Made by a program: the position numbers and the translations under genes
Source: Caulobacteraceae bacterium
GTDB taxonomy: Bacteria; Pseudomonadota; Alphaproteobacteria; Caulobacterales; Caulobacteraceae
DNA: 64,000 bases
NCBI GenBank assembly: GCA_003164925.1
Contig: PLRV01000036.1
Coordinates: forward strand, 16,227-80,226
Direction: 5' to 3'
The notes under the pieces: model-generated
Database searches by the model: none
What the model saw: the letters and a program-made list of their open reading frames with translations, nothing else
What the model was told of the DNA's origin: nothing
Shown: positions 14,830 through 30,057 of the stretch, in pieces
Position numbering within the stretch: position 1 is the first letter of the stretch
Layout: the number at the start of each line of letters is the position of its first letter

Positions 14830-16056
14830 ATGGCCCGCACCACGGCGTCAGGCAGCCGATTACTGCACCTCATAGGCTCGATCGACCCGGCGCAGGGCGG
14901 CCCGGTCGAGGCCTTGACCCAGCTTTACCGGGTTTATCTGCCACAGGGCGTGGACATAGAGGTGGCGACGCTCGATCAACCGGATGCGCCTTTTCTCAAG
15001 AGCTATCCTTTCAAGGTTCACGCCCTTGGGCGCGCCGGCGCCACTGAACAATGGGCGACGACCAAACTGCCGTGGGTCCGGTATCGCTATTCACCCCTTT
15101 ATGCGCGCTGGCTGAGGCAGAACCTGCACCGGTTTTCCGCGGTCATCGTGCATGGCCTTTGGACCTACACCACCTCGGGCGCCGTCGGTCCCATGCTCGA
15201 GGCCAAGACGCCGTACCTTGTCTTTACCCACGGCGCGCTGGATCCCTGGTTTCGGCGGGCCTATCCCCTCAAGCATGCGATCAAGCAACTGGTCTGGTGG
15301 ATAGGCGATGGGCGGCTGCTCAATCACGCCCGGCGCGTACTGTTCACGACCGAGGAGGAGAGGCTCCTCTCCCGCGACGCCTTTTTCCCCTACGCTGTCC
15401 ACGAAAGGGTTGTGGGCTATGGCATCGCCGATCCCCCGCCGCCCTCGCCCGCGCAGGCGGAGGCCTTCCGGCAAATCACGCCCGAACTCGCCGGCCGCCG
15501 TTATCTGCTCTATCTCAGCCGCATTCATCCCAAAAAGGGCTGCGATCTTTTGATCCAGGCCTTCGCCGACATCGCCCGCCGCGATCCGGGCCTCGATCTG
15601 GTCATGGCCGGACCCGACGGGACAGGCTGGAGCGGCGCGTTGAAGGCGATCGCTGCGCGCGAGGGGATTGGCGACCGCATTCACTGGCCCGGCTCCTTGC
15701 ACGGAGACGCCAAATGGGGCGCCTATAGGGGGTGCGAAGCCTTTGTCCTGCCCTCGCATCAGGAGAACTTCGGCATCGTCGTGGCCGAGGCCCTGGCCTG
15801 CGGCAAGCCGGTCCTCGTCAGCAACAAGGTCAACATCTGGCGTGAGGTGGAGGCGGACGGCGCCGGCCTAGTGGAGGACGACACCTTGGCCGGAACCCGG
15901 GCGCTGCTGAACGCCTGGGCGGATCAGGGCGAGGAGGCGCAGCGCGCGCGGGGATTGGCCGCCCGGGCCTGTTTTGTTGAGCGGTTCGACATCCGCAAGA
16001 CGTCCGAGGACATACTCAGCGTGATCAGCGAGGTCCTGCCCGATGTCGATCCTTGA
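14830..16056 (+). CDS. Glycosyltransferase family 4
   Basis: This retaining GT-B glycosyltransferase is likely to act on a lipid-linked polysaccharide precursor at the inner face of the membrane. I start at the ATG at 14830 (MARTTASGSRLLHLIGSIDPAQGGP), giving 408 aa; a longer frame upstream lacks support. The N-terminal acceptor domain has GSIDPAQGGPVEAL. The C-terminal donor domain has YLSRIHPKKGCDLLI, VMAGPDGTGW and SHQENFGIVVAEALACGKPVL with the EX7E motif. The 3' end overlaps the next gene by 14 nt, implying coupling in an operon with the acetyltransferase. Confidence 0.92.
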   Translation: MARTTASGSRLLHLIGSIDPAQGGPVEALTQLYRVYLPQGVDIEVATLDQPDAPFLKSYPFKVHALGRAGATEQWATTKLPWVRYRYSPLYARWLRQNLHRFSAVIVHGLWTYTTSGAVGPMLEAKTPYLVFTHGALDPWFRRAYPLKHAIKQLVWWIGDGRLLNHARRVLFTTEEERLLSRDAFFPYAVHERVVGYGIADPPPPSPAQAEAFRQITPELAGRRYLLYLSRIHPKKGCDLLIQAFADIARRDPGLDLVMAGPDGTGWSGALKAIAAREGIGDRIHWPGSLHGDAKWGAYRGCEAFVLPSHQENFGIVVAEALACGKPVLVSNKVNIWREVEADGAGLVEDDTLAGTRALLNAWADQGEEAQRARGLAARACFVERFDIRKTSEDILSVISEVLPDVDP

Positions 16057-16600
16057 AGCCCGCGCCGCCTACGACGGCGGACCGAGCTTTTCCCTCGGGC
16101 ATCGGCTCTACCGCGCCATTTGGGCGATCGCCTGGGGCCTGCTGGCGTCATGGACCCCGCCGCCCTTGCACCGATGGCGTATTTTCCTCCTGAACCTCTT
16201 CGGCGCCAGGGTGCATCCGAGCTGCCATATCTATGGCAGCACGCGGGTCTGGCGCCCCAAGCTGCTGCACATGGAGGCGGGCTCGACCCTCGGGCCGCGC
16301 GTGAACTGCTATTGCATGGCCCAGATCACCCTGAAGGCGCGGGCGATCGTCTCTCAGGACGCCACGCTGTGCGCGGGAACCCACGATGTGGCCGATCCCC
16401 ATTTTCAACTGCAGGCCCGTCCCATCACGATCGGCCAGGGGGCCTGGGTGGCGGCCGAGGCCTTCGTCGGTCCGGGCGTAAGCGTGGGCGCCGGCGCGGT
16501 CCTGGGGGCCAGGGCCGTGGCGTTCAAGGATCTCGCGGCCTGGACGATCTACGTCGGCAACCCGTGTGCGGCGCTCAAGCCGCGCACCATCCGCACCTGA
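16043..16600 (+). CDS. WcaF-like acetyltransferase (left-handed beta-helix)
   Basis: This 185-aa O-acetyltransferase belongs to the hexapeptide-repeat superfamily, in the colanic-acid acetyltransferase WcaF group. It has an N-terminal hydrophobic helix region (YRAIWAIAWGLLASWTPPPLHRW) and RIFLLNLFGARV. Hexapeptide rungs follow (VHPSCHIYGSTRVWRPKLL, AGSTLGPRVNCYCMAQITL). The active-site His lies in CAGTHDVADPHFQL, and ITIGQGAWVAAEAFVGPGVSVG and YVGNPCAALKPR close the domain. It probably acetylates a sugar of the exported polymer. Confidence 0.9.
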   Translation: MSILEARAAYDGGPSFSLGHRLYRAIWAIAWGLLASWTPPPLHRWRIFLLNLFGARVHPSCHIYGSTRVWRPKLLHMEAGSTLGPRVNCYCMAQITLKARAIVSQDATLCAGTHDVADPHFQLQARPITIGQGAWVAAEAFVGPGVSVGAGAVLGARAVAFKDLAAWTIYVGNPCAALKPRTIRT

Positions 16601-16616: not shown

Positions 16617-17399
16617 GTGACGCAATCTCCTCGCCTGGCCGCGGTCATCCTGACCAAGAACGAGGAGCGTAACCTGGCGACCTGCCTGGCCGCGGTCACG
16701 CAGGGCGTTGCTGTGGTGGTGGTCGACTCCGGGAGTACGGACGCAACCCTCGACATCGCCCGGGCTCACGGCTGCGAAATCCTGACGCGGGATTGGACCG
16801 GTTTTGCAGACCAGCGCAATTTTGCGTTGCGCGCGCTTGCGAGCCGGTTCGACTGGCTGGTTTTCATCGATGCTGACGAGACTTTTCCGCCGGCCATATG
16901 GGATTGGGCCGAGGCCAACCTGGATGAGCCTAAGGCCGCCGACGTAGTTTATTTGTCCCAGCGCATCCACATAGGCGGGCGCATGCTCCGGCGCGCGCCG
17001 CACTATCCCATATACCACCCCCGCATCGTCCGGCTTCGCCCCGACGTGTTCGTCAATAATCGAAGCGGCCACGGGGAAACCGTGCGCGAAGGTTTATCCC
17101 TGCGTTATCTGGACATTCCCTATCACCACCACATCATCGGCCGGGACCTGGGCTCCTGGCTGCACAAACATGTGGGCCTGGCGCTTATGGAGGCCCGGGC
17201 GCAGCCGTCCACCGGAATGCTCACGGCGCGCGCGCGCCTCAACGCCATGATGCCGACGGGTCCCCTGCGCCCGCCCGCCCGGTTCTTTTTTCACTACGTC
17301 GTGTGCGGCGGATGGCGTGATGGAAGGCCAGGCTTCATCTATTCGGCGCTCTACGCCTGGTATGAATTGACGAAGTGGCTCGCCGCCCTGCAGGTCTAG
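16617..17399 (+). CDS. Glycosyltransferase family 2, WaaE/KdtX-like
   Basis: This 260-aa inverting GT-A glycosyltransferase starts at the GTG at 16617, with a GAGGGG ribosome-binding site 6 nt upstream. It shows AAVILTKNEERNLATCL, VVVDSGSTDATLDIA, DWTGFADQRNFAL and the metal-binding FIDADE (DxD equivalent). These features together match the WaaE/KdtX beta-glucosyltransferase-like subgroup. The C-terminus is amphipathic (RPPARFFFHYVVCGGWRDG) and may associate with the membrane. It follows the acetyltransferase by 16 bp in the same operon. Confidence 0.9.
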   Translation: MTQSPRLAAVILTKNEERNLATCLAAVTQGVAVVVVDSGSTDATLDIARAHGCEILTRDWTGFADQRNFALRALASRFDWLVFIDADETFPPAIWDWAEANLDEPKAADVVYLSQRIHIGGRMLRRAPHYPIYHPRIVRLRPDVFVNNRSGHGETVREGLSLRYLDIPYHHHIIGRDLGSWLHKHVGLALMEARAQPSTGMLTARARLNAMMPTGPLRPPARFFFHYVVCGGWRDGRPGFIYSALYAWYELTKWLAALQV

Positions 17400-17438: not shown

Positions 17439-17885
17439 ATGATGGTGCGGCTGCAAGGGCTACTGTCTTCACAGCTGGCGTTGTTCCTGCTGGTCGGCGG
17501 GACGGCGGCCGGGGTCCAGTGGTTGGCGCGTTTTCCGCTTAACCGGGTGATGCCCTTCGCCGCCGCGGTCGTGGTGGCTTACGCGATCGGCATGTTCATC
17601 GCCTTCGAGCTGAACCGCCGCTTCGTGTTCCCTGAAGGGGGCGACGCCAGGCACAGGCAATTTGTCCGCTTCTTCCTGGTCAACATCTTGTCCTTCGCCA
17701 CGGTGTGGGCTGTGTCTGTCGTGCTGGGGTCCGTGATCCTGCCGCGGTTCATGAGCCTGCAGGCGGCCGAGGCTGTGGGGCACGGCCTGGGGGTGCTGTC
17801 GCCGGCCCTGGCCAGCTACTTCCTGCACAAACACTTCACTTTCCGGGCGACGCCGGCGGCCGCGAGCGCGGGAACAGGGCCATGA
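17439..17885 (+). CDS. GtrA-family four-TM membrane protein
   Basis: This 148-aa protein has four hydrophobic segments and the GtrA pattern: LFLLVGGTAAGVQWL, IGMFIAFELNRRFVFPEGG, FVRFFLVNILSFATVWAV and LASYFLHKHFTF. GtrA proteins are linked to transport or handling of polyprenyl-phosphate sugars. In mycobacteria the GtrA protein Rv3789 is encoded next to DprE1 and DprE2 and affects use of decaprenyl-phospho-arabinose. Its stop overlaps the start of the HAD-UbiA gene (ATGA), so the two are translationally coupled. Role inferred: flipping or presenting the prenyl-phospho-pentose made by the next three genes. Confidence 0.88.
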   Translation: MMVRLQGLLSSQLALFLLVGGTAAGVQWLARFPLNRVMPFAAAVVVAYAIGMFIAFELNRRFVFPEGGDARHRQFVRFFLVNILSFATVWAVSVVLGSVILPRFMSLQAAEAVGHGLGVLSPALASYFLHKHFTFRATPAAASAGTGP

Positions 17886-19336
17886 CCGGACCGTCCCGAG
17901 GCGCGTCGCCCTTGATCGTGGACCTGGACTTCACCCTGCTGCGCACCGACAGTCTGTGGGAGCAGTTCACCGCCTTGTTCTTTCGCCGCCCGTGGGACGC
18001 TCTGTGCGCTCTGTGCGCCCTGGCGACGCTGGGCCGCGGCCGGGCGCAGTTCAAGGCGCGGATCGTCGAGCTGGTCGACCTGGACCCGGCCGCCCTGCCT
18101 TACCGCCAGGAGCTGGTCGACTACCTCAAGGCGCAAAAGGCGCAGGGTCGCCGCGTGCACCTGGCCACGGCCGCCGATCGCCGCACCGCCGAGGCGGTGG
18201 CTGCCCACGTGGGCCTGTTCGATACGGTGGAAGCCAGCGACGGCGCCCACAATCTCAAGGGCCAGGGCAAGGCCGAGCGTCTGGCTGAGCGGTTTCCCTC
18301 CGGTTTCGTGTACGCTGGCGACCATGCCGCCGATCTCAAGGTGTGGGCTGGCGCCGAGGCCATCGTCCTGGCCGGCGCCAGCCCAAGCGTGGCGCGCCGA
18401 GCTCGGGCCCTGGGCAAGCCGATCGAGGCGGAATTCAAGGGCCCCCGGGCCGGCTTGAAGGTATGGCGCAAGGCCCTGCGGCTGCACCAATGGGCCAAGA
18501 ACATCCTGGTGTTCGTGCCCCTGCTCCTGGCCCATCGCTACCGAGACCTCCACGCCGACGCCATGGTCGCGGCCGCATTTGTGGCCATGGGGCTGGTCGC
18601 CTCGGCCACCTATGTCATCAACGACCTGGCCGATCTGGCCGCCGACCGGCGCCACGCCGCCAAGCGGCGGCGGCCGTTCGCCGCGGGCGACCTCAGCATC
18701 GCCCAGGGCGCGGGCGCGGTGGCTTGCCTGTTCGCGGCCGGCTTCGGCCTGGCGGCGGCGCTGTCGCCCGCGCTGCTGCTCGGGCTGGCCGCCTACACCG
18801 TGCTGACGCTGAGCTACACCTTCCGGCTCAAGCGCCTGGCGCTGATCGATGTGGCCACCCTGGGCCTGCTCTACACCACCCGCATCGTGATCGGCGGTTT
18901 GGTGGCCCAGGTGCCGCTGTCGGTGTGGCTGTTGACCTTCTCGATGTTCTTTTTCTTCTCGATCTCCCTGGCCAAGCGCTACGCCGAGATCTTCGCCATG
19001 GCGGCCAAGGCGCGCGTCGGGGCTATCGCCGGGCGCGGCTATCGGGCCGACGACGGACCGGCCGTCCTGGCGCTGGGCGTCGGGGCCACGGTCGCCTCGG
19101 TGCTGATCGTGGTCATCTACCTGACCGACGAGGCTTTTCCGTCGAAGATCTATCATCATCCCAACTGGCTGTGGGCGGCCCCGTTCCTGTTGATGCTGTG
19201 GTCCAGCCGGGTCTGGCTGCTGGCGGGCCGCGGCGAGATGGACGAGGACCCTGTGGCCTTCGCCCTGCGCGATCGGTTCAGTTGGGCCCTGGCGGTCCCG
19301 CTGCTGCTGGCGTTTGCGCGCGCCGTCATTCGATGA
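17882..19336 (+). CDS. HAD phosphatase - UbiA-type polyprenyl phosphate phosphoribosyltransferase fusion
   Basis: This 484-aa protein has two parts. Residues ~1-185 are a HAD-like phosphatase with motif I DLDFTLL (D14, D16, T18) and motif IV GDHAAD (D147, D151). From ~193 there is a polytopic UbiA prenyltransferase (LHQWAKNILVFVPLLLAHR) with NDLADLAADRRHAAKRRRP (N247, D248, D251, D255) and about eight membrane segments. The second Asp motif closely resembles decaprenyl-phosphate phosphoribosyltransferase Rv3806c. Predicted roles are transfer of 5-phosphoribose from PRPP to polyprenyl phosphate, and removal of the 5-phosphate. The gene overlaps gtrA and dprE1 by ATGA at each end. Confidence 0.88.
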   Translation: MTGPSRGASPLIVDLDFTLLRTDSLWEQFTALFFRRPWDALCALCALATLGRGRAQFKARIVELVDLDPAALPYRQELVDYLKAQKAQGRRVHLATAADRRTAEAVAAHVGLFDTVEASDGAHNLKGQGKAERLAERFPSGFVYAGDHAADLKVWAGAEAIVLAGASPSVARRARALGKPIEAEFKGPRAGLKVWRKALRLHQWAKNILVFVPLLLAHRYRDLHADAMVAAAFVAMGLVASATYVINDLADLAADRRHAAKRRRPFAAGDLSIAQGAGAVACLFAAGFGLAAALSPALLLGLAAYTVLTLSYTFRLKRLALIDVATLGLLYTTRIVIGGLVAQVPLSVWLLTFSMFFFFSISLAKRYAEIFAMAAKARVGAIAGRGYRADDGPAVLALGVGATVASVLIVVIYLTDEAFPSKIYHHPNWLWAAPFLLMLWSSRVWLLAGRGEMDEDPVAFALRDRFSWALAVPLLLAFARAVIR

Positions 19337-20667
19337 GCGCGCCGTTCGTCTCTCAGTCCTACCGTTCCTGGGGCGGCGTGACCCGCACGGCGCGCCCGGT
19401 CGCGCATCCGAAGTGGCGCCAGGAGCTGGCCGGCCTTCTCGGAGGGGCCAGAGACCGGGGCGACGTGCTCGGGGTGGGCCTGGGGCGCTCCTATGGCGAC
19501 AGTGGGCTGGATGCGGGCGGGCGCCTGATCTGCGGCCGGGGCTTGGACCGGTTCATGGCCTTCGACCCGCAAACCGGAGTCCTTCGCGCCGAGGCCGGCG
19601 CCAGCTTGGACGACATCCTGCAGCTGGTGGCGCCGCGCGGGTGGTTCTTGCCCACCACGCCAGGGACGCGCTTTGTCACCCTGGGCGGGGCGGTGGCCAA
19701 CGACGTGCATGGCAAGAACCACCACCGGGCCGGCTCGTTCGGCCTGCATGTGCGCCGGCTTGGCCTGATCCGTTCGGACCGGGGGGCCCTGGAGCTGTCC
19801 AGAGAGCAGGAGCCCCAGCTGTTCTTCGCCACTCTGGGCGGGTTGGGCCTGACGGGCTTCATCGCGTGGGTGGAGCTGCAGTTGGCGCCCACGCCGAGCA
19901 GCTTTCTGGATCAGGAGGCCATCGGTTTCTCCGGCTTGGACGGTTATTTCGACCTGCTGGCCGACAGCCACGACCGATTCGAGCATGTGGCGGCCTGGAT
20001 CGATTGCTCGGCCACAGGCGGCGGCCTCGGCCGCGGCGTCATGTTCCGCGCCAACTGGTCGGCCGAGGGCGGCCTTGTTACCCATGAGCGACGCCTGAAG
20101 CTGACCCTGCCGCTGGAGGCTCCGGGCTGGGTGCTGAACCGATGGTCGGTGGGGGCGTTCAACAGCCTTTATTACAGCGTGCATGGCTCGCGCCACGGCT
20201 TGCGGCGCATACCCTACGCCGCCGGCTTCTATCCGCTGGACGCCATCGGCGGTTGGAATCGGCTGTACGGGCGGGCCGGATTTTTCCAGCATCAGAGCGT
20301 CATTCCCGAGGGGGTCGCGCGGGAAGCCGTGCGCAAAATGCTCGAGCGAATCTCCGCCTCGGGCCAGGGCTCCTTCCTGGCGGTGCTCAAGAGCTTCGGC
20401 GGTAAGGATTCCGGCGGCCTGGTCAGCTTTCCCAGACCCGGCGCCTCCCTGGCGCTGGACTTCCCCAATCGCGGGGCCGAGACCCTGGATCTGCTCGACC
20501 GGCTCGACGCCATCGTGGCGGACGCCGGCGGCCGTATCTACCCGGCCAAGGACGGACGCATGTCCGCCGCCATGTTCCAGCAGGGCTATCCGCGCTGGCG
20601 CGCGCTGGAAGCCCTGCGCGATCCATCCTTTCAATCCGCCTTCTGGCGCCGGGTCACCCAATCATGA
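19333..20667 (+). CDS. dprE1: Polyprenyl-phospho-beta-D-ribose 2-oxidase (DprE1-like FAD enzyme)
   Basis: DprE1 oxidises the 2-OH of polyprenyl-phosphoryl-ribose, the first half of 2-epimerisation to the arabinose form. The 444-aa protein has the FAD-binding PCMH-type segments GLGRSYGDSGLDAGG and PTTPGTRFVTLGGAVANDVHG followed by KNHHRAGSFG. It has the substrate-side GGWNRLYGRAGFFQHQSVIP and the conserved lysine in YPAKDGR. The position of the mycobacterial inhibitor-reactive cysteine (…CVDFP) reads LALDFP, that is Ala374. Translational coupling to the flanking genes by 4-nt overlaps supports a shared pathway. Family assignment is strong; the substrate is inferred from context. Confidence 0.92.
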   Translation: MSAPFVSQSYRSWGGVTRTARPVAHPKWRQELAGLLGGARDRGDVLGVGLGRSYGDSGLDAGGRLICGRGLDRFMAFDPQTGVLRAEAGASLDDILQLVAPRGWFLPTTPGTRFVTLGGAVANDVHGKNHHRAGSFGLHVRRLGLIRSDRGALELSREQEPQLFFATLGGLGLTGFIAWVELQLAPTPSSFLDQEAIGFSGLDGYFDLLADSHDRFEHVAAWIDCSATGGGLGRGVMFRANWSAEGGLVTHERRLKLTLPLEAPGWVLNRWSVGAFNSLYYSVHGSRHGLRRIPYAAGFYPLDAIGGWNRLYGRAGFFQHQSVIPEGVAREAVRKMLERISASGQGSFLAVLKSFGGKDSGGLVSFPRPGASLALDFPNRGAETLDLLDRLDAIVADAGGRIYPAKDGRMSAAMFQQGYPRWRALEALRDPSFQSAFWRRVTQS

Positions 20668-21431
20668 AAAGCAGCAACGCGGCCCCCATGGGCGTGATCA
20701 TTCTCGGCGCGAGCTCCGCCATAGCCGAGGCGGTCGCTCGTAGGCTGGCGACCAAGGGCGTGCGGCTGGGCCTCGTGGCGCGCGACGCCGTCAAGCTCGC
20801 CGCCATAGGGGACGATCTGCGCATACGCGGCGCGCCGCAGATCGCGGTGCGGGCCTGGGATCTGGCGGCCGGTCCCGCTCCGGGCGCCTTGGCCGAACTG
20901 GCCCAGGAGATGGGCGGCGCCGATACGGTGCTGATCGCCTACGGCCTCCTGGGCGACCAGGCCCTAGCCGAGGCCGACGGGGCAGCGGCGCTGGAGCTGC
21001 TCCAGGTCAATTTCACCAGCGCCGTGTCGTGGGCGCTGGAGTCCAGCCGCGTGCTGGCGACGATATGCGGCGCGCACGGGCTGGTGGTGGGCCTGGGCAG
21101 CGTGGCTGGGGACAGGGGCCGCAAATCCAACTTCGTCTATGGCGCGGCCAAGGGCGGATTGGCCCTGGCGTTGCAGGGCATGGCTCACCGCTCCGCCCTG
21201 ACTGGCGCCCCTCGCGGGATGGTGGTCAAGCTCGGCTTCGTGGATACGCCGATGACGGCGGGCTTCAAGAAAGGCGGTCCGCTTTGGTCTACGCCAGATC
21301 AGGCGGCGGCGGCGATCGTGCAGGCGATGGCCCGGCCCAAGGCCATCGTCTATGCGCCATGGTTCTGGCGCTGGATCGCCTTGATCATCCGCCTTCTGCC
21401 CGAGGCGGTGTTCAATCGCGCGGACCTCTGA
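20664..21431 (+). CDS. dprE2: Polyprenyl-phospho-2-keto-pentose reductase (DprE2-like SDR)
   Basis: DprE2 reduces the 2-keto intermediate made by DprE1 with NADH, completing ribo-to-arabino epimerisation. The 255-aa short-chain dehydrogenase has the cofactor loop GVIILGASSAIAEAVAR, a catalytic Ser region LGSVAGDRGRKSN and the YGAAK (YxxxK) motif. A C-terminal hydrophobic stretch (FWRWIALIIRLLP) is typical of membrane-associated DprE2 proteins. It overlaps dprE1 by ATGA and closes the four-gene set. Many SDRs look alike, but adjacency to dprE1 makes this call firm. Confidence 0.9.
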   Translation: MKSSNAAPMGVIILGASSAIAEAVARRLATKGVRLGLVARDAVKLAAIGDDLRIRGAPQIAVRAWDLAAGPAPGALAELAQEMGGADTVLIAYGLLGDQALAEADGAAALELLQVNFTSAVSWALESSRVLATICGAHGLVVGLGSVAGDRGRKSNFVYGAAKGGLALALQGMAHRSALTGAPRGMVVKLGFVDTPMTAGFKKGGPLWSTPDQAAAAIVQAMARPKAIVYAPWFWRWIALIIRLLPEAVFNRADL

Positions 21432-22216: not shown

Positions 22217-22807
22217 ATGACGCGCCACATTGTGTTCCGTGCGCTGATTTTGGCCTTTTTGGGACTGTTTTTCGCGGGCGCAGTCCTGGCCGCCGCCCCT
22301 TCGCCCGTCTCAGAAGGATCGCCAGCGGCGACTGAGGCGGACGCTCAATTCGAATATCATCTTGGGGCGGGCGACAAGCTGCGCATCGTGGTGTTCGGCG
22401 AGGACTCCCTTTCGGGAGAATTCTTCGTGTCCGGCGGCGGCAAGGTGTCCCTTCCGTTGATCGGCGACGTCGACGCAACCGGCCTGACCATTCCGCAACT
22501 GCAAAAGGCGATCGAACAGAAGCTGGCGGATGGCTATCTAAAGCAGCCACAAGTCAGCGCCGAGGTGGAGAACTATCGGCCCTTCTACATTCTCGGCGAG
22601 GTGATGAAGCCGGGCGAATACCCCTACACCAACGGCCTTACGGTGCTGAACGCCGTCGCCACCGCCGAGGGCTTCACCTACCGCGCGGACACACGCAAGG
22701 TGTACATCAAGCGCGCCACCAGCCTTGGCGAGACCCAAATGCCGTTGACGACGGCCACGCCGGTGCTGCCCGGCGACACTATCAGGATCGGCGAACGGTT
22801 CTTCTAG
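22217..22807 (+). CDS. Polysaccharide export protein, short OPX (Wza/GumB-like)
   Basis: This 196-aa exported protein has a cleavable signal peptide ending near GAVLAAAPSP and no lipobox cysteine. A Poly_export domain follows (YHLGAGDKLRIVVFGEDSLSG, VSGGGKVSLPLIGDVDATG), then one SLBB-like domain (FYILGEVMKPGEYPYTNGLT, VLNAVATAEGFTYRAD). It is about half the length of E. coli Wza and lacks the C-terminal outer-membrane helix. This corresponds to the short OPX class that depends on a separate beta-barrel porin. The barrel encoded at 23792 is the obvious partner. It would form the periplasmic channel above the Wzc-type copolymerase. Confidence 0.92.
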   Translation: MTRHIVFRALILAFLGLFFAGAVLAAAPSPVSEGSPAATEADAQFEYHLGAGDKLRIVVFGEDSLSGEFFVSGGGKVSLPLIGDVDATGLTIPQLQKAIEQKLADGYLKQPQVSAEVENYRPFYILGEVMKPGEYPYTNGLTVLNAVATAEGFTYRADTRKVYIKRATSLGETQMPLTTATPVLPGDTIRIGERFF

Positions 22808-23278
22808 GATTGAATCCTCCAGCTCCGGCATTTGACCCCCTCAGAAGCGATGGCCGGCGGGCCGCCGCAGTCGATACGGCTGAAGATCAAATGCAGCCCC
22901 AATTCGGGGTGGAATAGACCTAGCTGTACCGTAGCGCCGCGGACGTGAGCCGCCGCCGACTGACGGCTGAAACGCGGGACGCACCGTCTGATTCAGGTAG
23001 CTGGCCGTTCTGTGCACGTGTATGTGCCCGAGTTGTGGGCGCTGCACCGCGATAATGGCCGATGATCATGTATATTATTCGAGCATTGAGTCTTTTCAGG
23101 CTCTGACATCTTTTTCCAGGCGATACATTGATCCGGTGAAGCGCTAATGTCACAGGCGAATGCATGACCAGCGCGGCGTTAATTGTGATGTATGCTTGGT
23201 CATTCGCTCGAGGCAGATGAATATTTTTTGCACAACAATGGCCATTAGGCCGAATGTTGTGTTTGGAGGGCTCGAATA
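22808..23278 (+). promoter_or_regulatory. Long non-coding leader with inverted repeats upstream of the Gly-rich secreted protein gene
   Basis: This 471-bp stretch has no credible gene and is A/T-rich in its last 250 bp. It contains an imperfect inverted repeat GCGAATGCATGACCA (23156-23170) versus TTGGTCATTCGC (23196-23207). A second hairpin, CACAACA..GGCC-ATTA-GGCC..TGTTGTG (23231-23261), sits just before the GGAG ribosome-binding site of the next gene. It probably carries a separate promoter and a structured 5' leader or operator; which of these is unresolved. Confidence 0.55.
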
Positions 23279-23719
23279 ATGGCTATTCACAAAACCGCCT
23301 TGGCGGCTGCGATGATTGTGGGGATGGCGTCCGCCGGATCCGCTGCTCTGGCCGAACCCAGTTCAGCAGAGACCAGTCTGACCGCCTCTTTGGAGGCCGC
23401 GCTCAAGAGTTTGGATAGTGCGGCGCCCGAAGAGAAGACCAAGGACAAGCTCCAGCAGGTGATCGCTCGAATTCTCGCGCTGTCGGACGCCACGCCTGTT
23501 GAAAAGCAGGCGGCGCTCGAAGCGGTGGCCGCGGCGGACGCCCACGACGAGTCAGGCTTCCCAGCCGAAACTCGGCCTGCGCTGACGGTTGAACTCGCCG
23601 CCATTTTGGGAAGCGACGTCACCGCTTCCGGCGGCGGCGCAGGCGGCAGCGCCGGCTTTGGCACGGCCGGCTTGGGCGGTGGCGGCGGCGGCGGGACGAG
23701 CGTCTACAGCCACAGTTAA
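23279..23719 (+). CDS. Secreted protein with glycine-rich C-terminus, unknown function
   Basis: This 146-aa protein has a clear signal peptide (MAIHKTALAAAMIVGMASAG...ALAEP). An Ala/Glu/Lys helical middle (EAALKSLDSAAPEEKTKDKL, ARILALSDATPVEKQAALEAV) precedes a low-complexity Gly/Ser/Ala tail with a seven-glycine run ending TSVYSHS. There are no cysteines in the mature part. It lies between the OPX and beta-barrel genes behind a long leader with two inverted repeats, and has the ribosome-binding site GGAGGG. The location suggests a structural or accessory part of the secreted matrix, but this is inference; I recognise no family. Confidence 0.75.
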   Translation: MAIHKTALAAAMIVGMASAGSAALAEPSSAETSLTASLEAALKSLDSAAPEEKTKDKLQQVIARILALSDATPVEKQAALEAVAAADAHDESGFPAETRPALTVELAAILGSDVTASGGGAGGSAGFGTAGLGGGGGGGTSVYSHS

Positions 23720-23791
23720 GGCGAAATGGCGCTCGGGGCTCGTCGAGGGGACGGCTCTGAGCTAGCGCCGCGTAACGAGAAGGGGATAGGC

Positions 23792-25084
23792 ATGGCGTTC
23801 AAAGCCCTGTCTGGTGTTGTGGCGTATGCCGCCGCTTTGTTGATGGCGGGTCAGGCCTTAGCCCAGGCGCAAGACAATTACTTTTCGCGAGATCGAAACA
23901 TCAGCGTTCGCGAGCGAGCGCGGCCCGGATATGACGCTCTGGGCATGCCGCTAAGCGGCTTCATCGCCTATCCAAAGATCGAGCTGGGCGTTCAGGAGAA
24001 CACCAACATCTATGGCGCGGCCGCCAACCCGACGGCCGACACGGTTGGGATAATCAGTCCTGAGATCAACCTAGCCTCACGTTGGTCGCGCAATAGCCTT
24101 ACGTTCTTCGCGCGCACCCAGACCCGCGCCTATGCCTCCCATTCCGGGGAAGACACCACCGATTGGCAAACCGGTGGGACAGGTCGGCTGGATCTTGGCG
24201 CTTCGACAATCTCTTTCCAGGGCGACTACGGCTATCTGGCCGAACCGCGGACGGCCGTCATCAGCCAGACCTCGACCAGTTTCGCGACGCTGCACCCTAT
24301 CGAATATTACCTGGGCGAGACCGATTTGGACGCCCGCCACACCTTCAACCGGCTGCAGATTGAAGGCGAGGCCTCGTACAAGAGCTACCAGTTCCAGAAC
24401 GGAACCAATGCAGCAGACCAGCTCGTTCTTGAAAGCCCGCTGGACTATGACCGCATGGTCGCCTCGGCCAAGGCAGGATATGCGGTCAGCCCCGACACGG
24501 CGATCTACGCCTCGTTCCGCTATAATACGATCTCCTATCCGAATAACTCCGCCACGGTCACGACCAACGGCGCGAGCCGCAATTCCAGCGGTGAGAGCTA
24601 TGACGTTGGCGCCAATTTCGACCTTACCCAGCTTATCCGCGGCGACGCCCAGTTCGGCTATTTGCACCAGCAGTTCGACTCCCCGCTGTTCAAGCCGCTG
24701 GACGGATTCCATGCCCTGGCCAAGGTGGAGTGGTTCCCCACCGAGTTGGCCACGGTGACCGTCAGCGGAGAGCGCGACGTCAACGCCGCAACCTTGCCCG
24801 GCTCGGCCTCGATGATCAGCGGAGTCGCCTCAGGACAGGTCGATTACGAACTGCTCCGCAACGTCATCCTCACGGGAATCGCGCGCTATCAGGACGACGC
24901 CTTTCAGGGCGTCGATCGTGATGACCACATCGTCGATGTGGCGATCAGCGCGGACTATCTGCTTAACCGCGGCGTCGGCGTCCACTTGGCGTACGACTAT
25001 CTGACCCAGGATTCATACGGCGTGAATCGGGGCGTAACTTTCAACGACAACCGGGTCACCCTCTCGACGACCCTTCAGTATTGA
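23792..25084 (+). CDS. Outer-membrane beta-barrel protein of the polysaccharide export system
   Basis: The 430-aa product starts at the ATG at 23792 with a signal peptide ending LLMAGQALAQAQD. The mature part has alternating hydrophobic/polar strands with aromatic girdles: LTFFARTQTRAYASH, DLGASTISFQGDYGYLAEP, ASYKSYQFQNG, TAIYASFRYNTISYP and VRVTLSTTLQY-like closing residues (NRVTLSTTLQY). The C-terminal residue is an aromatic-containing strand end, typical of BAM substrates. Such BBP2-type barrels accompany short OPX proteins and are proposed to be the outer-membrane polysaccharide channel. The gene lies between the OPX/secreted-protein genes and wzc. Confidence 0.85.
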   Translation: MAFKALSGVVAYAAALLMAGQALAQAQDNYFSRDRNISVRERARPGYDALGMPLSGFIAYPKIELGVQENTNIYGAAANPTADTVGIISPEINLASRWSRNSLTFFARTQTRAYASHSGEDTTDWQTGGTGRLDLGASTISFQGDYGYLAEPRTAVISQTSTSFATLHPIEYYLGETDLDARHTFNRLQIEGEASYKSYQFQNGTNAADQLVLESPLDYDRMVASAKAGYAVSPDTAIYASFRYNTISYPNNSATVTTNGASRNSSGESYDVGANFDLTQLIRGDAQFGYLHQQFDSPLFKPLDGFHALAKVEWFPTELATVTVSGERDVNAATLPGSASMISGVASGQVDYELLRNVILTGIARYQDDAFQGVDRDDHIVDVAISADYLLNRGVGVHLAYDYLTQDSYGVNRGVTFNDNRVTLSTTLQY

Positions 25085-25130
25085 CCCGAGCTTACCCGTC
25101 GGTGGCTGGCCCAGACTAGGTTTGATCTCA

Positions 25131-27389
25131 ATGAACATCCAAAGCCTGGATAGAAGGCGCGACCCGGTGGAGCAGCCCCAGGGCGGAGATCTCGATCTCC
25201 TCCAGCTGATCTCCACCTTTCGTCGGCGGTTGCGGCTGTATGCGGCTGTTGTCGCCGCGGTTGTCGTTGGCGCGGTGGTGTTCAGCTACGAACAGACTCC
25301 TCGCTATACGGCCACGTCCTACGTGATGATCGATACGCGCAAGCATGACGTGTCCAGCGTCAATGCCGTGCTGTCGGGACTGCCGCCCGACTCCAGCGCG
25401 GTCGACACCGAGGTGGAGGTCCTGAAGTCGCGCTCCCTGGCGACCCGCGTCGCCCAAGCGCTCAAACTGGACCAGGATCCCGAGTTCAATCCCAGGCTCG
25501 CCAAGCGGCCTCTGATTGGCGAAATTCTGGGCGCGCCGAGTTCCGCGATTCACGCCCTGTTCAAGGCCACGGTTCCGCAGCAGCAGTCTCTGATCGCCAA
25601 TACCGCCGCCGTCGATCTCGAGAACCGGCGCGTCCTGGACAGCGTGGTGGATTCGCTGTTGAGGCGGCTGACGATTCGTCGATCGGGCCTCACCTATGTG
25701 ATCGGCATCAACTTCGAGTCCGAAAATCCGACCAAGGCGGCGCTGATCGCTAACACCTTCGCCGACGACTACCTGCTGCAGCAGCTCGAAGCCAAGTTCG
25801 ACGCGACCAAGCAAGCCAGCGTCTGGCTGCAGGAGCGGCTTGGCGATCTGCGCAACCAGGTCGAAACGGCGGAGGAGGCGGTCGCCCAGTATCGCGCCGC
25901 TAACGGGCTGATGAGCGCCGTGGGTTCGAACCTGACCGAACAGGAAGTGTCGAACCTGAACCAGCAACTCGCCGTTGCTCAGGCCGACGCCGCCGAGCAA
26001 GAGGCCAAGGTTCGCACCGCCAAGCAGCAGATGGCGAATGGCTCCAACGGCGAAGACGTCGCCGCGGCGCTCGATTCCGAGGTGGTGAAGGGCCTCCGCG
26101 CCCAGCGCGCCGATATCAGCGGCAAGCTGGCGGATCTGCAAACCAAGTACGGATCGCGCCACCCCGAGGTGCAGCGCATCCAACGCCAACTGGCCGATAT
26201 CGACAACCAGATTCAGCTCGAGATCAACCGCAACGTTTCCAACCTGGACGCCCAGGCCCAGGTCGCCCGCCAGCGCATGGCGTCGATCCAGGGCAGCCTC
26301 GCCCAGGCCCGCGGCACGCTCGCGGGCAACAACGTGGCTACGGTCAAACTCAACGAGCTTGAGCGCAACGCCGAATCCGTACGCACCCTCTATGAGAGCT
26401 TCCTCGGCCGGTTCAAGGAAACCACGAGCGAGCAGGGCATGGAGGAATCCGACGCCCAGGTCGTATCCCGCGCCAAGATCCCGACGTCGCCGAGCTATCC
26501 CAAGAAAGGCATGAATGCCGTCCTGGGTCTGCTGTTCGGCATGCTGGTCGGAACCGGCGTGATCTTCCTGGCGGAGGCTCTGGACAATGGCATTGCCACG
26601 TCCGAGGACGTCGAGCGGTTCTTCAACGTCGCCAGCCTCGGTTCTGTGCCGCTACTGTCATCGACTGGAACGACGCGCGAGACGGGCCTGTCGCCGGCGG
26701 AATCCATCATTGAAAAGCCCCTGTCGGCGTTCGCGGAAGCCTTCCGTAACTTGCGGACATCGATCATCTATTCCCGCGTCGACAAGCCGATCCGCATTAT
26801 CGCGATCACCTCCGCCCTACCGGGGGAAGGGAAGACCACCACTGCGTTCTGTCTGGGCCGCACCATGGCCATGTCGGGCAGCCGCACCGTGGTGGTGGAC
26901 TGCGACGTTCGTCGCCGAAATATCAACCGCCTCCTGGGCGAAGAGCCGACAGTGGGTCTGATGGAAGTCCTAACCGGGGCCGCCACCTTGGACGAGGCCC
27001 TCGTCGCCGATCGCGCGTCCGGCGCCTGGTTCCTGCCTCTGGCCCGCAGCGCCTTCACGCCGAAGGATCTGTTCGGTGGGGCCGCCATGAACAATCTGCT
27101 GATCGAGTTGCAGAAGCGCTTCGAGTTCGTCATTCTGGATACCGCGCCGGTCATTCCCGTGGCCGATACCCGCTCCTTGGCCCCTAAGGCGGACGTGGTC
27201 GTGGTGCTCGCCCGGTGGCGCAGTACGCCGCGCAAGGCGGTGCAGGCGGCCTTCGACATGTTGAACTCGGTCGGAGCCGACATCGCCGGCATCGCCATGA
27301 CCCAGGTGGATATGCGTCAACAGGCCAAGTACGGCTACGGCGACGCGGGCTATTATTATCGCGCTTACCGCAAGTACTATGCACAATGA
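25131..27389 (+). CDS. Wzc-type polysaccharide copolymerase / tyrosine autokinase
   Basis: This 752-aa inner-membrane protein controls chain length and export. The first TM segment is near residues 35-55 (LYAAVVAAVVVGAVVFSY), followed by a Wzz domain and long periplasmic coiled coil (~200-430, for example QLAVAQADAAEQEAKVRTAK). The second TM lies after YPKKGMNAVLGLLFGM. The cytoplasmic BY-kinase has Walker A SALPGEGKTTT (K568), VVVDCDVRRR, FVILDTAPVIPVAD and a tyrosine-rich tail (YGYGDAGYYYRAYRKYYAQ), the autophosphorylation cluster. The upstream in-frame TTG at 25122 is less likely than the ATG at 25131. The stop overlaps the next gene's ATG. Confidence 0.95.
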   Translation: MNIQSLDRRRDPVEQPQGGDLDLLQLISTFRRRLRLYAAVVAAVVVGAVVFSYEQTPRYTATSYVMIDTRKHDVSSVNAVLSGLPPDSSAVDTEVEVLKSRSLATRVAQALKLDQDPEFNPRLAKRPLIGEILGAPSSAIHALFKATVPQQQSLIANTAAVDLENRRVLDSVVDSLLRRLTIRRSGLTYVIGINFESENPTKAALIANTFADDYLLQQLEAKFDATKQASVWLQERLGDLRNQVETAEEAVAQYRAANGLMSAVGSNLTEQEVSNLNQQLAVAQADAAEQEAKVRTAKQQMANGSNGEDVAAALDSEVVKGLRAQRADISGKLADLQTKYGSRHPEVQRIQRQLADIDNQIQLEINRNVSNLDAQAQVARQRMASIQGSLAQARGTLAGNNVATVKLNELERNAESVRTLYESFLGRFKETTSEQGMEESDAQVVSRAKIPTSPSYPKKGMNAVLGLLFGMLVGTGVIFLAEALDNGIATSEDVERFFNVASLGSVPLLSSTGTTRETGLSPAESIIEKPLSAFAEAFRNLRTSIIYSRVDKPIRIIAITSALPGEGKTTTAFCLGRTMAMSGSRTVVVDCDVRRRNINRLLGEEPTVGLMEVLTGAATLDEALVADRASGAWFLPLARSAFTPKDLFGGAAMNNLLIELQKRFEFVILDTAPVIPVADTRSLAPKADVVVVLARWRSTPRKAVQAAFDMLNSVGADIAGIAMTQVDMRQQAKYGYGDAGYYYRAYRKYYAQ

Positions 27390-28840
27390 GGCTGGAGCCT
27401 GAGGGCTCCGCCCTGAAGTCAGAATCACGCTCTACATATTTAAATCCTGAGCACGAGCCGGCGTTTCGGCGATCCCACCCAGACCAATCATGGTCCAGGC
27501 TCAGCCGGTTAATGCCCTCCGCGGACGATGCGGCAGTCTTCAGCTTTGTCATTCTGCTCTACGTCGAGCACTTGATCTTCGGGGCGAACAGGGGCGACCT
27601 TTCCCTGTTTTTCGCCATTCTGCACCTGCTCATTCTGCTTGCCGCCCTGGCGACGCGGGCCAGCCGTCGGGCCCTGGACGCCGCGCCGCTGGTTGTTCCC
27701 GGAGGGCTCTTTGCTCTTGTTCTGGCCGGCGCCTTCTTCACCCTGCTGCCGCTGGGCGGGCGGATCGGCCACCCCCTATGGAGCTATGTATCCGCGTCCG
27801 GCGGCAGCGTGTCCCTGGATCCGGCGGCTACGCGGGTTGAGATCGTCAAGCTGTTGGGGCTCGCGGCGGTGTTCGCCGTGGGCATCGTCTTCGGGGCCAA
27901 GCGCGAACGGGCCGAGGCCATGATCCGGGCTTTGTCCTATGTCGGCGGAGCGTTCGCCGTCTGGGCTTTCCTCAGTTGGTCAAACGATCCCGACACCATA
28001 TTCGGCACAGCTCGCTTCTACGGCAGCGGTCGGCTGGCGGCCGCCTTCCTGAGCGCAAACAGCGCAGCCACCTTGTTCGCCTGCCAGAGCGTGCTGCAAT
28101 TGTGCCTGGCGATCCGCGCCGTCCAGCGCGCGCCCAAACCGTTCTTTTCAAAGCGGGCCTGGATGGAAATGAAGGGCCTGCCCGCGGCGTTGATTTTGCT
28201 GTTCATTAACGTCAGTTGCCTGCTCCTTACCCAGTCACGCGCCGGGGTGACGGCCGCCTTCGCCGCCATGGCCCTGGCCATCGCCCTGTTCGCCCTGGTG
28301 CGCACCGATCGCCGCAGCGCCGTGGGCGGTGTCATGGGCGTGGGTGGATTGCTGCTCTGCGCCGCCGCAGGCCTTGTATTGTTGAAAGGCCAATCCCTTC
28401 TGGGCCGCATGTCCGACAATCCCCTGATGGACGGGCGGCTGGCCTATTTCGGAGCCTATTGGCGCACGGTGCAAGCCTCGCCCTGGTGGGGTTATGGCCT
28501 CGGGGCGTTCGCTTCGGTCAAATATCAGAGCATCACTGCGCCTACGGCGGTCCTGATGGGCGCCCTAGGCGCCGCTCACAATGTCTATCTGCAATGGCTT
28601 CTGCAAACCGGCGTCATCGGCTTTGTCCCGATGATGGGCTGTCTGGCCGTCATCCTCGCCACGATCCTGAACGGTTTTCGGCGCCGATCCCGGCAACAGG
28701 TGGTGATGATCGTCGCCCTCGCCGTCACGGTCGTTTTTGCCTTCCACGGCATGACCGACTACGCCTTGGAGGAGCCGTCTCTAGCGGTCTCCTTCGCGGC
28801 GTTGCTGGGCTTGGCCTATGGCGTCGCCACCCGGACCTAG
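27386..28840 (+). CDS. O-antigen polymerase/ligase family membrane protein (Wzy/WaaL-like)
   Basis: This 484-aa protein starts at the ATG at 27386 (ATGA overlap with the kinase gene); an internal ATG at 27512 is an alternative that drops ~42 hydrophilic residues. About ten to twelve hydrophobic segments follow, with the PF04932-type region LLLTQSRAGVTAAFAAMALAI and a large periplasmic loop containing LMDGRLAYFGAYWRTVQ and WWGYGLGAFASVKYQ. HNVYLQWLLQTGVIGF is the conserved HNxxLQ-like motif of Wzy/ligases. It most likely polymerises the repeat units. Without structural comparison, polymerase and ligase cannot be separated. Confidence 0.88.
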   Translation: MRLEPEGSALKSESRSTYLNPEHEPAFRRSHPDQSWSRLSRLMPSADDAAVFSFVILLYVEHLIFGANRGDLSLFFAILHLLILLAALATRASRRALDAAPLVVPGGLFALVLAGAFFTLLPLGGRIGHPLWSYVSASGGSVSLDPAATRVEIVKLLGLAAVFAVGIVFGAKRERAEAMIRALSYVGGAFAVWAFLSWSNDPDTIFGTARFYGSGRLAAAFLSANSAATLFACQSVLQLCLAIRAVQRAPKPFFSKRAWMEMKGLPAALILLFINVSCLLLTQSRAGVTAAFAAMALAIALFALVRTDRRSAVGGVMGVGGLLLCAAAGLVLLKGQSLLGRMSDNPLMDGRLAYFGAYWRTVQASPWWGYGLGAFASVKYQSITAPTAVLMGALGAAHNVYLQWLLQTGVIGFVPMMGCLAVILATILNGFRRRSRQQVVMIVALAVTVVFAFHGMTDYALEEPSLAVSFAALLGLAYGVATRT

Positions 28841-28847
28841 TTTGGCT

Positions 28848-28999
28848 CAGAAATTCGCCTGCGGCTTGTGGAGAGCACGGAGCGAATTTCTGAATCTCAA
28901 GCCGCACTAGAAATGTACGATTCTAGTGTGCTTTTTGGATCTGAAGGTCGCTCCTCGGTCTACCCAAAGTGCGGGCGAACTTCAGATCCAGCACACTAG
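28848..28999. repeat. Compound dispersed repeat, CTAGTGTGCT family (copy 1)
   Basis: Two adjacent palindromes. CAGAAATTCGC (28848-28858) pairs with GCGAATTTCTG (28882-28892). A long hairpin begins CTAGTGTGCT (28923-28932) with GGATCTGAAGGTCGC and closes with GCGAACTTCAGATCC and AGCACACTAG (28990-28999). A related single-hairpin copy is at 32745-32818. It may terminate transcription of the EPS operon. Confidence 0.8.
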
Positions 29000-29019
29000 G
29001 CCAATCACGCCCGCGCCGC

Positions 29020-29697
29020 TCAGTAGGATCCGCGACTGAAAATCACCGCGGGAACGGTCGCGATCAGTATTTTGATGTCGAGCAAAGGGCCGCGGTTTTG
29101 GGCGTAGATTACATCCATGGCAACCCGTGAGCGGTAAGACGCGTCGTTTCTTCCGCTTACCTGCCAAAGACCCGTCAGGCCCGGCCGAACTGAGCAATAG
29201 TGACAGAACCTGCGCCCATAGCGCCAAACCTCCGCCTGGATGATCGGGCGCGGACCCACGAGGGTCATGTCGCCTATCAATACATTGAAAAGCTGAGGTA
29301 ATTCGTCGAGGCTCAACTTGCGGAGCACCCCGCCGATCGAGGTTATCCGCGGATCAACCCTTAGCTTGTGGTCGCGCTCCCATTCGGCCCGAGCGCTGGG
29401 CGAACTGTCCAATAGCGCCATGAGCCGCGCCTCGGCGTCGACACACATCGAACGGAATTTGAAGCAGCGGAACACCTTTCCGCCAAAGCCCAGACGGGAT
29501 TGGGAAAACAGGATCGGCCCGCCGTCCTCAAGATAGACGAGAAGAGCCGTCGCCGCGATCACCGGAGCCAGGAAGACGATCATCAGGGCGCTGAGGCCAA
29601 TGTCGAACAGTCTGCCCCGCCAGGACTTGCCCAGCCGAAGGGTCCTCGGGCTCAACACCCGTGATCGCGGCCTATGGAATAATTGTACTTGCAGCAT
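29020..29697 (-). CDS. Initiating sugar-phosphate transferase (ExoY/WbaP C-terminal type)
   Basis: This enzyme transfers a hexose-1-phosphate from a nucleotide sugar to undecaprenyl phosphate, starting repeat-unit synthesis. I use the ATG at 29697, giving 225 aa, the size of ExoY-type monotopic transferases. A TTG-initiated frame to 29745 is possible. The product shows an N-terminal membrane hairpin (LFDIGLSALMIVFLAPVIAA), SQSRLGFGGKVFRCFKFRSM, KLSLDELPQLFNVL, GDMTLVGPRPI, VRPGLTGLWQVSGRND and the C-terminal Asp/Tyr region. It is opposite to the main operon but clearly part of the locus. Confidence 0.93.
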   Translation of the reverse strand: MLQVQLFHRPRSRVLSPRTLRLGKSWRGRLFDIGLSALMIVFLAPVIAATALLVYLEDGGPILFSQSRLGFGGKVFRCFKFRSMCVDAEARLMALLDSSPSARAEWERDHKLRVDPRITSIGGVLRKLSLDELPQLFNVLIGDMTLVGPRPIIQAEVWRYGRRFCHYCSVRPGLTGLWQVSGRNDASYRSRVAMDVIYAQNRGPLLDIKILIATVPAVIFSRGSY

Positions 29698-30057
29698 CAG
29701 TTTCCAAGCCCGTTGCTCGGCACAATCAAAGGACACCTTCGCCAAAAGGGTGTCTATCCGATTCAGGCGTTGGCCGATTTCTTGTCATCCAAACGTGAGG
29801 GATCGGCCTTATTACAGAGCTATTGCCGGAATTTGCGGCGCCAAGCTCGGCATCGTTTGTACAAGCAAAGACATGGCCGTCCGCCAGCCGTTCGGAAAAT
29901 GGAGGATTGAGGCCACGCCAGCCGTGGGCGATGGGCGTCAAAGCTGGCGCCGGACGATGTCTCGCCCGGTCTAAAAACCGCTCTAACCTTGTGATTTAAA
30001 GTCAGATTCAGCGGCCAGCCCAGCACAAGCCGTTGCGCTCTAGGCTTGGCGCTGGGT
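29698..30057. other. Intergenic region with terminator-like hairpin after the VanZ gene
   Basis: This 360-bp region holds no credible gene. Near its right edge CCCAGCACAAGCC (30019-30031) pairs imperfectly with GGCTTGGCGCTGGG (30043-30056), just past the VanZ-like gene's stop on the minus strand, and may terminate it. A fragment around 29975-30011 (AAAACCGCTCTAACC ... AGTCAGATTCAG) looks like a decayed intergenic repeat and carries a GANTC. The promoter of the sugar transferase is expected near 29700-29760; nothing specific was seen. Confidence 0.5.

Follow-up and report, generated by a model that had tools for sequence, protein, structure and literature searches.

In mycobacteria, the gene set of the decaprenylphosphoryl-D-arabinose (DPA) pathway is Rv3806c, Rv3807c, Rv3790 (DprE1), Rv3791 (DprE2) and Rv3789. 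Comparable systems have been described in Gram-negative bacteria. Citrobacter youngae O1/O2 has a three-component pentofuranose system (Kelly et al. 2024, PMC11127046), and that paper presents biochemistry for a donor enzyme of the HAD-UbiA type, places DprE1/E2 homologues in candidate systems of glycans containing arabinofuranose (Araf) and terms the route widespread. In Azorhizobium, noeC, noeH and noeO were proposed to act in forming a D-arabinose precursor (PMC2443382). Here we describe four adjacent genes, together referred to as the cassette, in a 64,000-nucleotide stretch of the genome of a Caulobacteraceae bacterium (GCA_003164925.1, contig PLRV01000036.1), hereafter the window. They encode a GtrA-family membrane protein, a HAD-UbiA fusion, a DprE1-like oxidase and a DprE2-like reductase, and they lie inside an exopolysaccharide (EPS) locus of which no published account was found in the open-access library searched.

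The four genes, at positions 17439-21431, are coupled by an ATGA overlap at all three junctions (GtrA/HAD-UbiA, HAD-UbiA/DprE1-like and DprE1-like/DprE2-like), and all four reading frames are intact. An initial annotation had predicted both this arrangement and the identities of the genes; coordinates and sequence at the junctions agree with the former, and family and solved-structure matches with the latter (Table 1). By sequence, the nearest solved structures are DprE1 for the oxidase, an Rv3806c-type phosphoribosyltransferase for the fusion and DprE2 for the reductase, for which the second-best structure is a FabG at 1e-12; on the question of whether unrelated families would score better, the first assignment holds. 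The fusion exceeds the curated cut-off of NF006088, a model whose own name is only 'UbiA family prenyltransferase', and its UbiA half is closest to decaprenyl-phosphate phosphoribosyltransferases. A DprE1-like search of the same genome returned a single gene, that of the cassette.

The active sites point in the same direction. Twelve residues of Rv3806c have been named as binding phosphoribosyl pyrophosphate (PRPP), Mg or pyrophosphate, and its phosphoribose-binding sites are not conserved across the UbiA superfamily (PMC10994848). By hand count on the alignment with these residues, the fusion keeps ten of the twelve (R22, K28, Y70, N73, D77, K87, R90, Y138, K143 and Y157), with K28, Y70 and Y157 among those retained, whereas Q135 is replaced by Thr and K208, in a gapped part of the alignment, by Arg. 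The fusion also carries the HAD motifs DLDFT at 14 and GDHAAD at 146 and the UbiA motif NDLADLAAD at 247. In the oxidase we found GLGRSYGD, HGKNHH, FFQHQSVIP and AKDGR, and the DprE1 site residues Y60, HGKNHH, Q334/Q336 and K418 (numbers hand-counted on the structure chain) are all present; the reductase has the short-chain dehydrogenase/reductase (SDR) motifs GASSAI and YGAAK. As a separate observation, the alignment places Ala in the oxidase (19333-20667) at DprE1 position 387, a Cys that is the target of covalent benzothiazinone inhibitors.

Judged from their sequences, the four genes probably make a lipid-bound D-arabinofuranose donor. We infer the reactions, the identity of the lipid and the flipping step as follows. 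The UbiA half would transfer phosphoribose from PRPP onto polyprenyl phosphate (polyprenyl-P; probably undecaprenyl phosphate) and the HAD half would remove the 5-phosphate, giving polyprenyl-P-ribofuranose; the oxidase and the reductase would then epimerise C2 to yield polyprenyl-P-D-arabinofuranose, which GtrA would help to carry to the periplasmic face. There, a periplasmic GT-C-type transferase encoded elsewhere would attach arabinofuranose, most probably in a side branch, to an EPS otherwise built by the neighbouring GT4, WcaF-type, GT2, Wza, Wzc and Wzy proteins. We consider it likely that the cassette does serve the surrounding EPS in this way, with GtrA assisting and the transferase unlinked, and the EPS of the locus is a reasonable putative carrier of arabinofuranose. 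The earlier statement that the cluster encodes every step is correct as far as donor synthesis goes; no gene for the transfer step was found in the cluster.

Table 1. Genes of the cassette and of the surrounding exopolysaccharide locus, with window coordinates and supporting matches
Feature	Coordinates	Strand	Evidence
GT4 glycosyltransferase, first of seven closely spaced genes	14830..16056	+	PF00534 103 bits; NF038295 HpsP 144 bits, below cut-off 550
WcaF-type acetyltransferase	16043..16600	+	NF007797 157 bits, below cut-off 192
GT2 glycosyltransferase	16617..17399	+	PF00535 60.6 bits
GtrA-family membrane protein, probable flippase/partner for lipid-linked pentose	17439..17885	+	PF04138 62.1 bits (cut-off 26); 62% identity to same-place GtrA of Phenylobacterium L007
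Fusion of N-terminal HAD phosphatase and C-terminal UbiA-type polyprenyl-phosphate phosphoribosyltransferase	17882..19336	+	NF006088 590 bits (cut-off 351); PDB 8j8j 1.7e-24; motifs; PRPP-site residues
DprE1-like FAD (flavin adenine dinucleotide) oxidase	19333..20667	+	NF053785 325 bits (cut-off 500); PDB DprE1 4.8e-70; motifs
DprE2-like SDR reductase	20664..21431	+	PRK07102 220 bits (cut-off 267); NF053786 149 bits (cut-off 250); PDB DprE2 2.1e-23; motifs
Wza-type export protein	22217..22807	+	PF02563 79.3 bits
BBP2-type outer-membrane porin	23792..25084	+	PF10082 274 bits
Wzc-type co-polymerase	25131..27389	+	PF02706, PF13614, PF13807; 72-76% identity in three same-genus genomes
Wzy_C polymerase/ligase	27512..28840	+	PF04932 65 bits; orthologue (43-46% identity) in two same-genus genomes without dprE1
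Initiating sugar-phosphate transferase (Bac_transf)	29020..29745	-	PF02397 201 bits

The surroundings agree with the Wza/Wzc/Wzy-type export locus of the initial annotation. The GT4, WcaF-type and GT2 genes lie upstream on the cassette's strand, with only 39 bases between the GT2 and GtrA genes, and the genes from Wza through the BBP2-type porin, Wzc and Wzy_C to the sugar-phosphate transferase follow downstream at 22217-29745. Promoter-like sites (3, against 0.9 expected from shuffles) and terminator-like sites (6, against 6.7) were not used as evidence.

Genus and family comparisons covered three same-genus genomes (G004, G026 and G039) and 300 family genomes, the window's own included. Wzc and the genes to its right are kept in all three same-genus genomes, none of which has a match to DprE1 or to HAD-UbiA. 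In G004, the approximately 17 kb left of Wzc hold a Wza match and, farther out, one GT4-like gene (31%), with no counterpart beyond Wza to the window's cassette, WcaF-type or GT2 genes. The roughly 4 kb left of Wzc in G026 gave zero window matches, and the contig of G039 shows just a BBP2-like gene on that side. Because these genomes keep the Wzc flank without the cassette, the cassette is part of a variable EPS segment, of which one genome gives a complete view and the other two a partial one.

The donor might instead be made for another acceptor (a pilin, lipopolysaccharide, S-layer or other glycan), its placement among EPS genes being incidental. Published proposals assign the same donor to a Pseudomonas pilin and related genes to the Azorhizobium Nod factor (PMC11127046, PMC2443382). 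Moreover, no GT-C gene was found linked to the cassette among the scanned window open reading frames (ORFs), and the related cassette of Phenylobacterium L007 lies near pyruvate-ferredoxin oxidoreductase-like genes, with no EPS export gene matched near it or in three similar family loci. We nevertheless regard this explanation as somewhat unlikely, given the close spacing with the GT4, WcaF-type and GT2 genes, the difference in the cassette segment of G004, whose locus is the one in the genus visible in its entirety, and the existence of other family members (L114, L116 and L118) in which HAD-UbiA, DprE1 and DprE2 have genes of the Wza, Wzc or exosortase type close by. In one of these (L118:5872-12843), an exosortase gene adjoins HAD-UbiA, GtrA, DprE1 and DprE2 as well as a polytopic protein of 417 aa that has no Pfam match.

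The nearest relatives, in Phenylobacterium L007 and the family genomes G193, G123 and G098, have GtrA, HAD-UbiA, DprE1 and DprE2 in cassette order. Identities to L007 are 62% for GtrA, 64% for HAD-UbiA, 62% for DprE1 and 60% for DprE2; those to the three family genomes are 61-62%, 62-64%, 63% (oxidase) and 60-61% (reductase), respectively. Directly upstream, these four loci carry a large polytopic protein (888 aa and without Pfam match in L007), an SDR (PF01370) and an amine-oxidase-like flavoprotein (PF01593). None of the three L007 proteins was significantly matched in the window. In the window's own genome the polytopic protein gave no match, in a search run without a control, and the sole match of the flavoprotein covers 50 residues; the SDR was searched in the window only. 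Such differences would be expected if the cassette were a remnant that had lost or left behind its transferase, SDR and flavoprotein, its donor genes being idle or decaying. This explanation is improbable: the four frames are intact and the catalytic residues retained, an unlinked candidate transferase exists on contig C7 (see below), and the GC content at third codon positions of the cassette (0.85-0.89) resembles that of the measured core genes (0.87-0.91) and not that of the EPS export genes (0.71-0.82).

A single scan of genome contigs confirmed at least 577 DprE1 relatives, and the best 80 were used for a locus survey with neighbour profiles built from the same 80 loci. Their titles include Alpha-, Beta-, Gamma- and other Proteobacteria, Acidobacteria, Verrucomicrobia, Chloroflexi, Myxococcales and others, and only 1 of the 80 is actinobacterial (a Streptomyces record), although the best 80, as the closest relatives of the query, give no measure of overall taxonomic spread. 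The initial annotation had called the pathway rare outside actinobacteria, which does not hold, because at least 577 relatives were confirmed and a Gram-negative route has been published (PMC11127046). This is a known and widely distributed pathway, to which the window cassette adds one further case.

In the 80 loci, a HAD-UbiA or UbiA match lies within 8 kb of DprE1 in 63 and within 100 bp in 62. DprE2 is matched in 76 loci, within 150 bp of DprE1 in 74, by a profile that also catches other SDRs; both partners are present in 60. GtrA occurs in 28 loci and an LPG_synthase_TM-type protein in 16, one or the other in 40. The latter protein (L027:615-1601 and 15 other loci; PF03706 in the one scanned) stands without GtrA in 12 of its 16 loci and is a possible alternative flippase. 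An SDR epimerase, an amine-oxidase-like flavoprotein and GtrA all occur beside DprE1/DprE2 in 24 of the 80 loci (L007:5893-8123 and 23 others); GtrA is present in 24 of the 25 loci with the flavoprotein, and the flavoprotein in 24 of the 28 with GtrA.

The cassette occurs sporadically among the family genomes. DprE1 (threshold E 1e-20) was found in 16 of the 300 genomes, own included, and a HAD-UbiA or UbiA match (threshold E 1e-50) in 23, 20 of them over the cut-off; the two occur together in 14. Three family loci (L182, L183 and L184) have HAD-UbiA near other polytopic genes and no DprE1 match in their genomes, and are possible ribofuranose systems. DprE1 relatives were also found in 64 of 72,556 plasmid records, every one below 60% identity.

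Several results weigh against the reading of the cassette as a D-Araf donor source for the EPS. The oxidase and the reductase miss the cut-offs of the DprE1 and DprE2 equivalogs NF053785 and NF053786 (Table 1), for which reason we use the labels 'DprE1-like' and 'DprE2-like'; the reductase also lies below the cut-off of PRK07102. The fusion is below that of three decaprenyl-phosphate phosphoribosyltransferase equivalogs (NF008978, 131 against 207 bits; NF008977, 117 against 234; NF008976, 105 against 474). The window is without the SDR and flavoprotein that accompany GtrA in relatives, suggesting that the role of GtrA here may differ. Additionally, a Pfam scan of 34 distinct ORFs of the window, some of which are probably not genes (those up to 41.3 kb apart from a few small ones), gave no match to a PMT-type or other GT-C family, in line with the first annotation, whereas a large polytopic gene (at least 380 aa and at least six predicted membrane helices) is found near DprE1 in 39 of the 55 loci that have 6 kb of sequence to either side of it. 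This count is crude: it includes plain non-transferases, such as a sodium-solute symporter and a TgpA-type protein, and scores L058 as negative although it holds such a protein, with five helices counted. The missed equivalog cut-offs for DprE1 and DprE2 would also suit an oxidase/reductase pair acting on another lipid-linked or free sugar, with a product other than arabinofuranose. This we consider very improbable, since the best solved-structure matches are DprE1 and DprE2, with other families far behind, and a phosphoribosyltransferase-type gene adjoins DprE1 in most of the best 80 loci.

Where, then, might the transferase be? The only polymerase/ligase-type match among the scanned ORFs is Wzy_C (27512-28840), which was rejected as a specific arabinosyltransferase partner given that its orthologue is retained in two same-genus genomes without dprE1. 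Beside other DprE1 loci we observed a polytopic family with an HNEH motif, four members of which come from the 80-locus set (L013:14722-16767, L053:14745-16886, L011:14759-16891 and L058:12198-13721) and one from a family genome (L112:4321-5955). Several members have a soluble C-terminal part, and the only two scanned, L013 and L112, are without Pfam match; the family is possibly a new GT-C family. An HNEH-type polytopic gene near DprE1 in an uncultured Caulobacteraceae (L017:3026-4855) is in two pieces with one internal TAG, reflecting either gene disruption or a mistake in the assembly.

A profile of the HNEH family (A1) matches 10 of the 80 loci and none of the three same-genus genomes; its single match in the window's own genome is a gene on contig C7 (456 aa, about 10 helices, E 2.1e-18, with an NEHH motif). 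Of the 300 family genomes, 11 have relatives of the C7 protein (E 1e-10), and 4 of these 11 also have DprE1 (hypergeometric p 0.0014; 3 of 10 and p 0.010 with the own genome removed), and the same four have HAD-UbiA (p 0.006; 0.030 with the own genome removed); all these values ignore kinship. However, neither DprE1 nor HAD-UbiA reached the thresholds used in 7 of the 10 other carriers, and for this reason the C7 protein is only a weak candidate for the transferase. In eight further contexts, no gene best-matched a C7 neighbour, and three of the contexts of C7 relatives (G184, G208 and G169) share 358- and 371-aa neighbours among themselves. A wider profile (A2), in a search that scored the three best candidates per genome and missed G274, found earlier at E 1e-10, matched 26 of the 300 genomes, 15 of them only in the C-terminal part; DprE1 is present in 4 of the remaining 11 and in 3 of the four strongest genomes. 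A more specific scenario, in which the EPS locus captured the donor half alone and the distant C7 protein decorates the variable EPS, is quite improbable in our estimate; if true, one donor cassette would be reusable with different transferases.

Other candidates in the own genome are two PF13231 proteins unlinked to the cassette, both weak possibilities. One is encoded directly after a gene that has a GtrA domain (one of four such genes in this genome) and, as judged by eye, a GT2 start, so that this PF13231 protein probably has its own donor; the second sits among other genes. The 417-aa polytopic protein of the L118 type was not found in the own genome or in G193, but was found in G172, its source, and in G202.

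The locus is a clear example of genes for lipid-linked arabinofuranose synthesis inside an alphaproteobacterial EPS locus, and within one genus it shows the cassette as a variable component of that locus. Contrary to the earlier view, the survey shows the pathway not to be rare beyond the actinobacteria, and it indicates polytopic families without Pfam match as possible pentofuranosyltransferases.

As the initial annotation proposed, the cassette resembles the mycobacterial set: the same reactions would be expected as in the DPA pathway, and GtrA, DprE1 and DprE2 stand in equal relative order. In the window, however, the HAD domain is fused to UbiA, unlike the separate mycobacterial phosphatase, the fused gene is placed between those for GtrA and DprE1, and no linked Emb/Aft transferase was found. 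The cassettes of L007, G193, G123 and G098 differ from that of the window in being preceded by the polytopic protein, SDR and flavoprotein and in having no EPS export match near by. C. youngae O1/O2 (PMC11127046) likewise joins an N-terminal HAD-type phosphatase and a C-terminal UbiA-type synthase in one protein, with polyprenyl-P-ribofuranose as entry point and an epimerase step that sets the sugar; it has a single SDR epimerase and a MATE protein where the window has a DprE1/E2-type pair and GtrA. In terms of the three-component system, the window genome has a phosphatase-domain donor synthase and GtrA, with no GT-C linked. The D-Araf pathway of Pseudomonas pilins is also a Gram-negative donor route, and the enzyme of P. 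syringae B728a too has a phosphatase domain, although it is C-terminal there, the phosphatase of P. aeruginosa PA7 is a separate protein and the acceptor is pilin (same paper). The noeCHOP genes of Azorhizobium, compared by their published description (PMC2443382), are alphaproteobacterial like those of the window, but they belong to a nod operon and their acceptor is the Nod factor.

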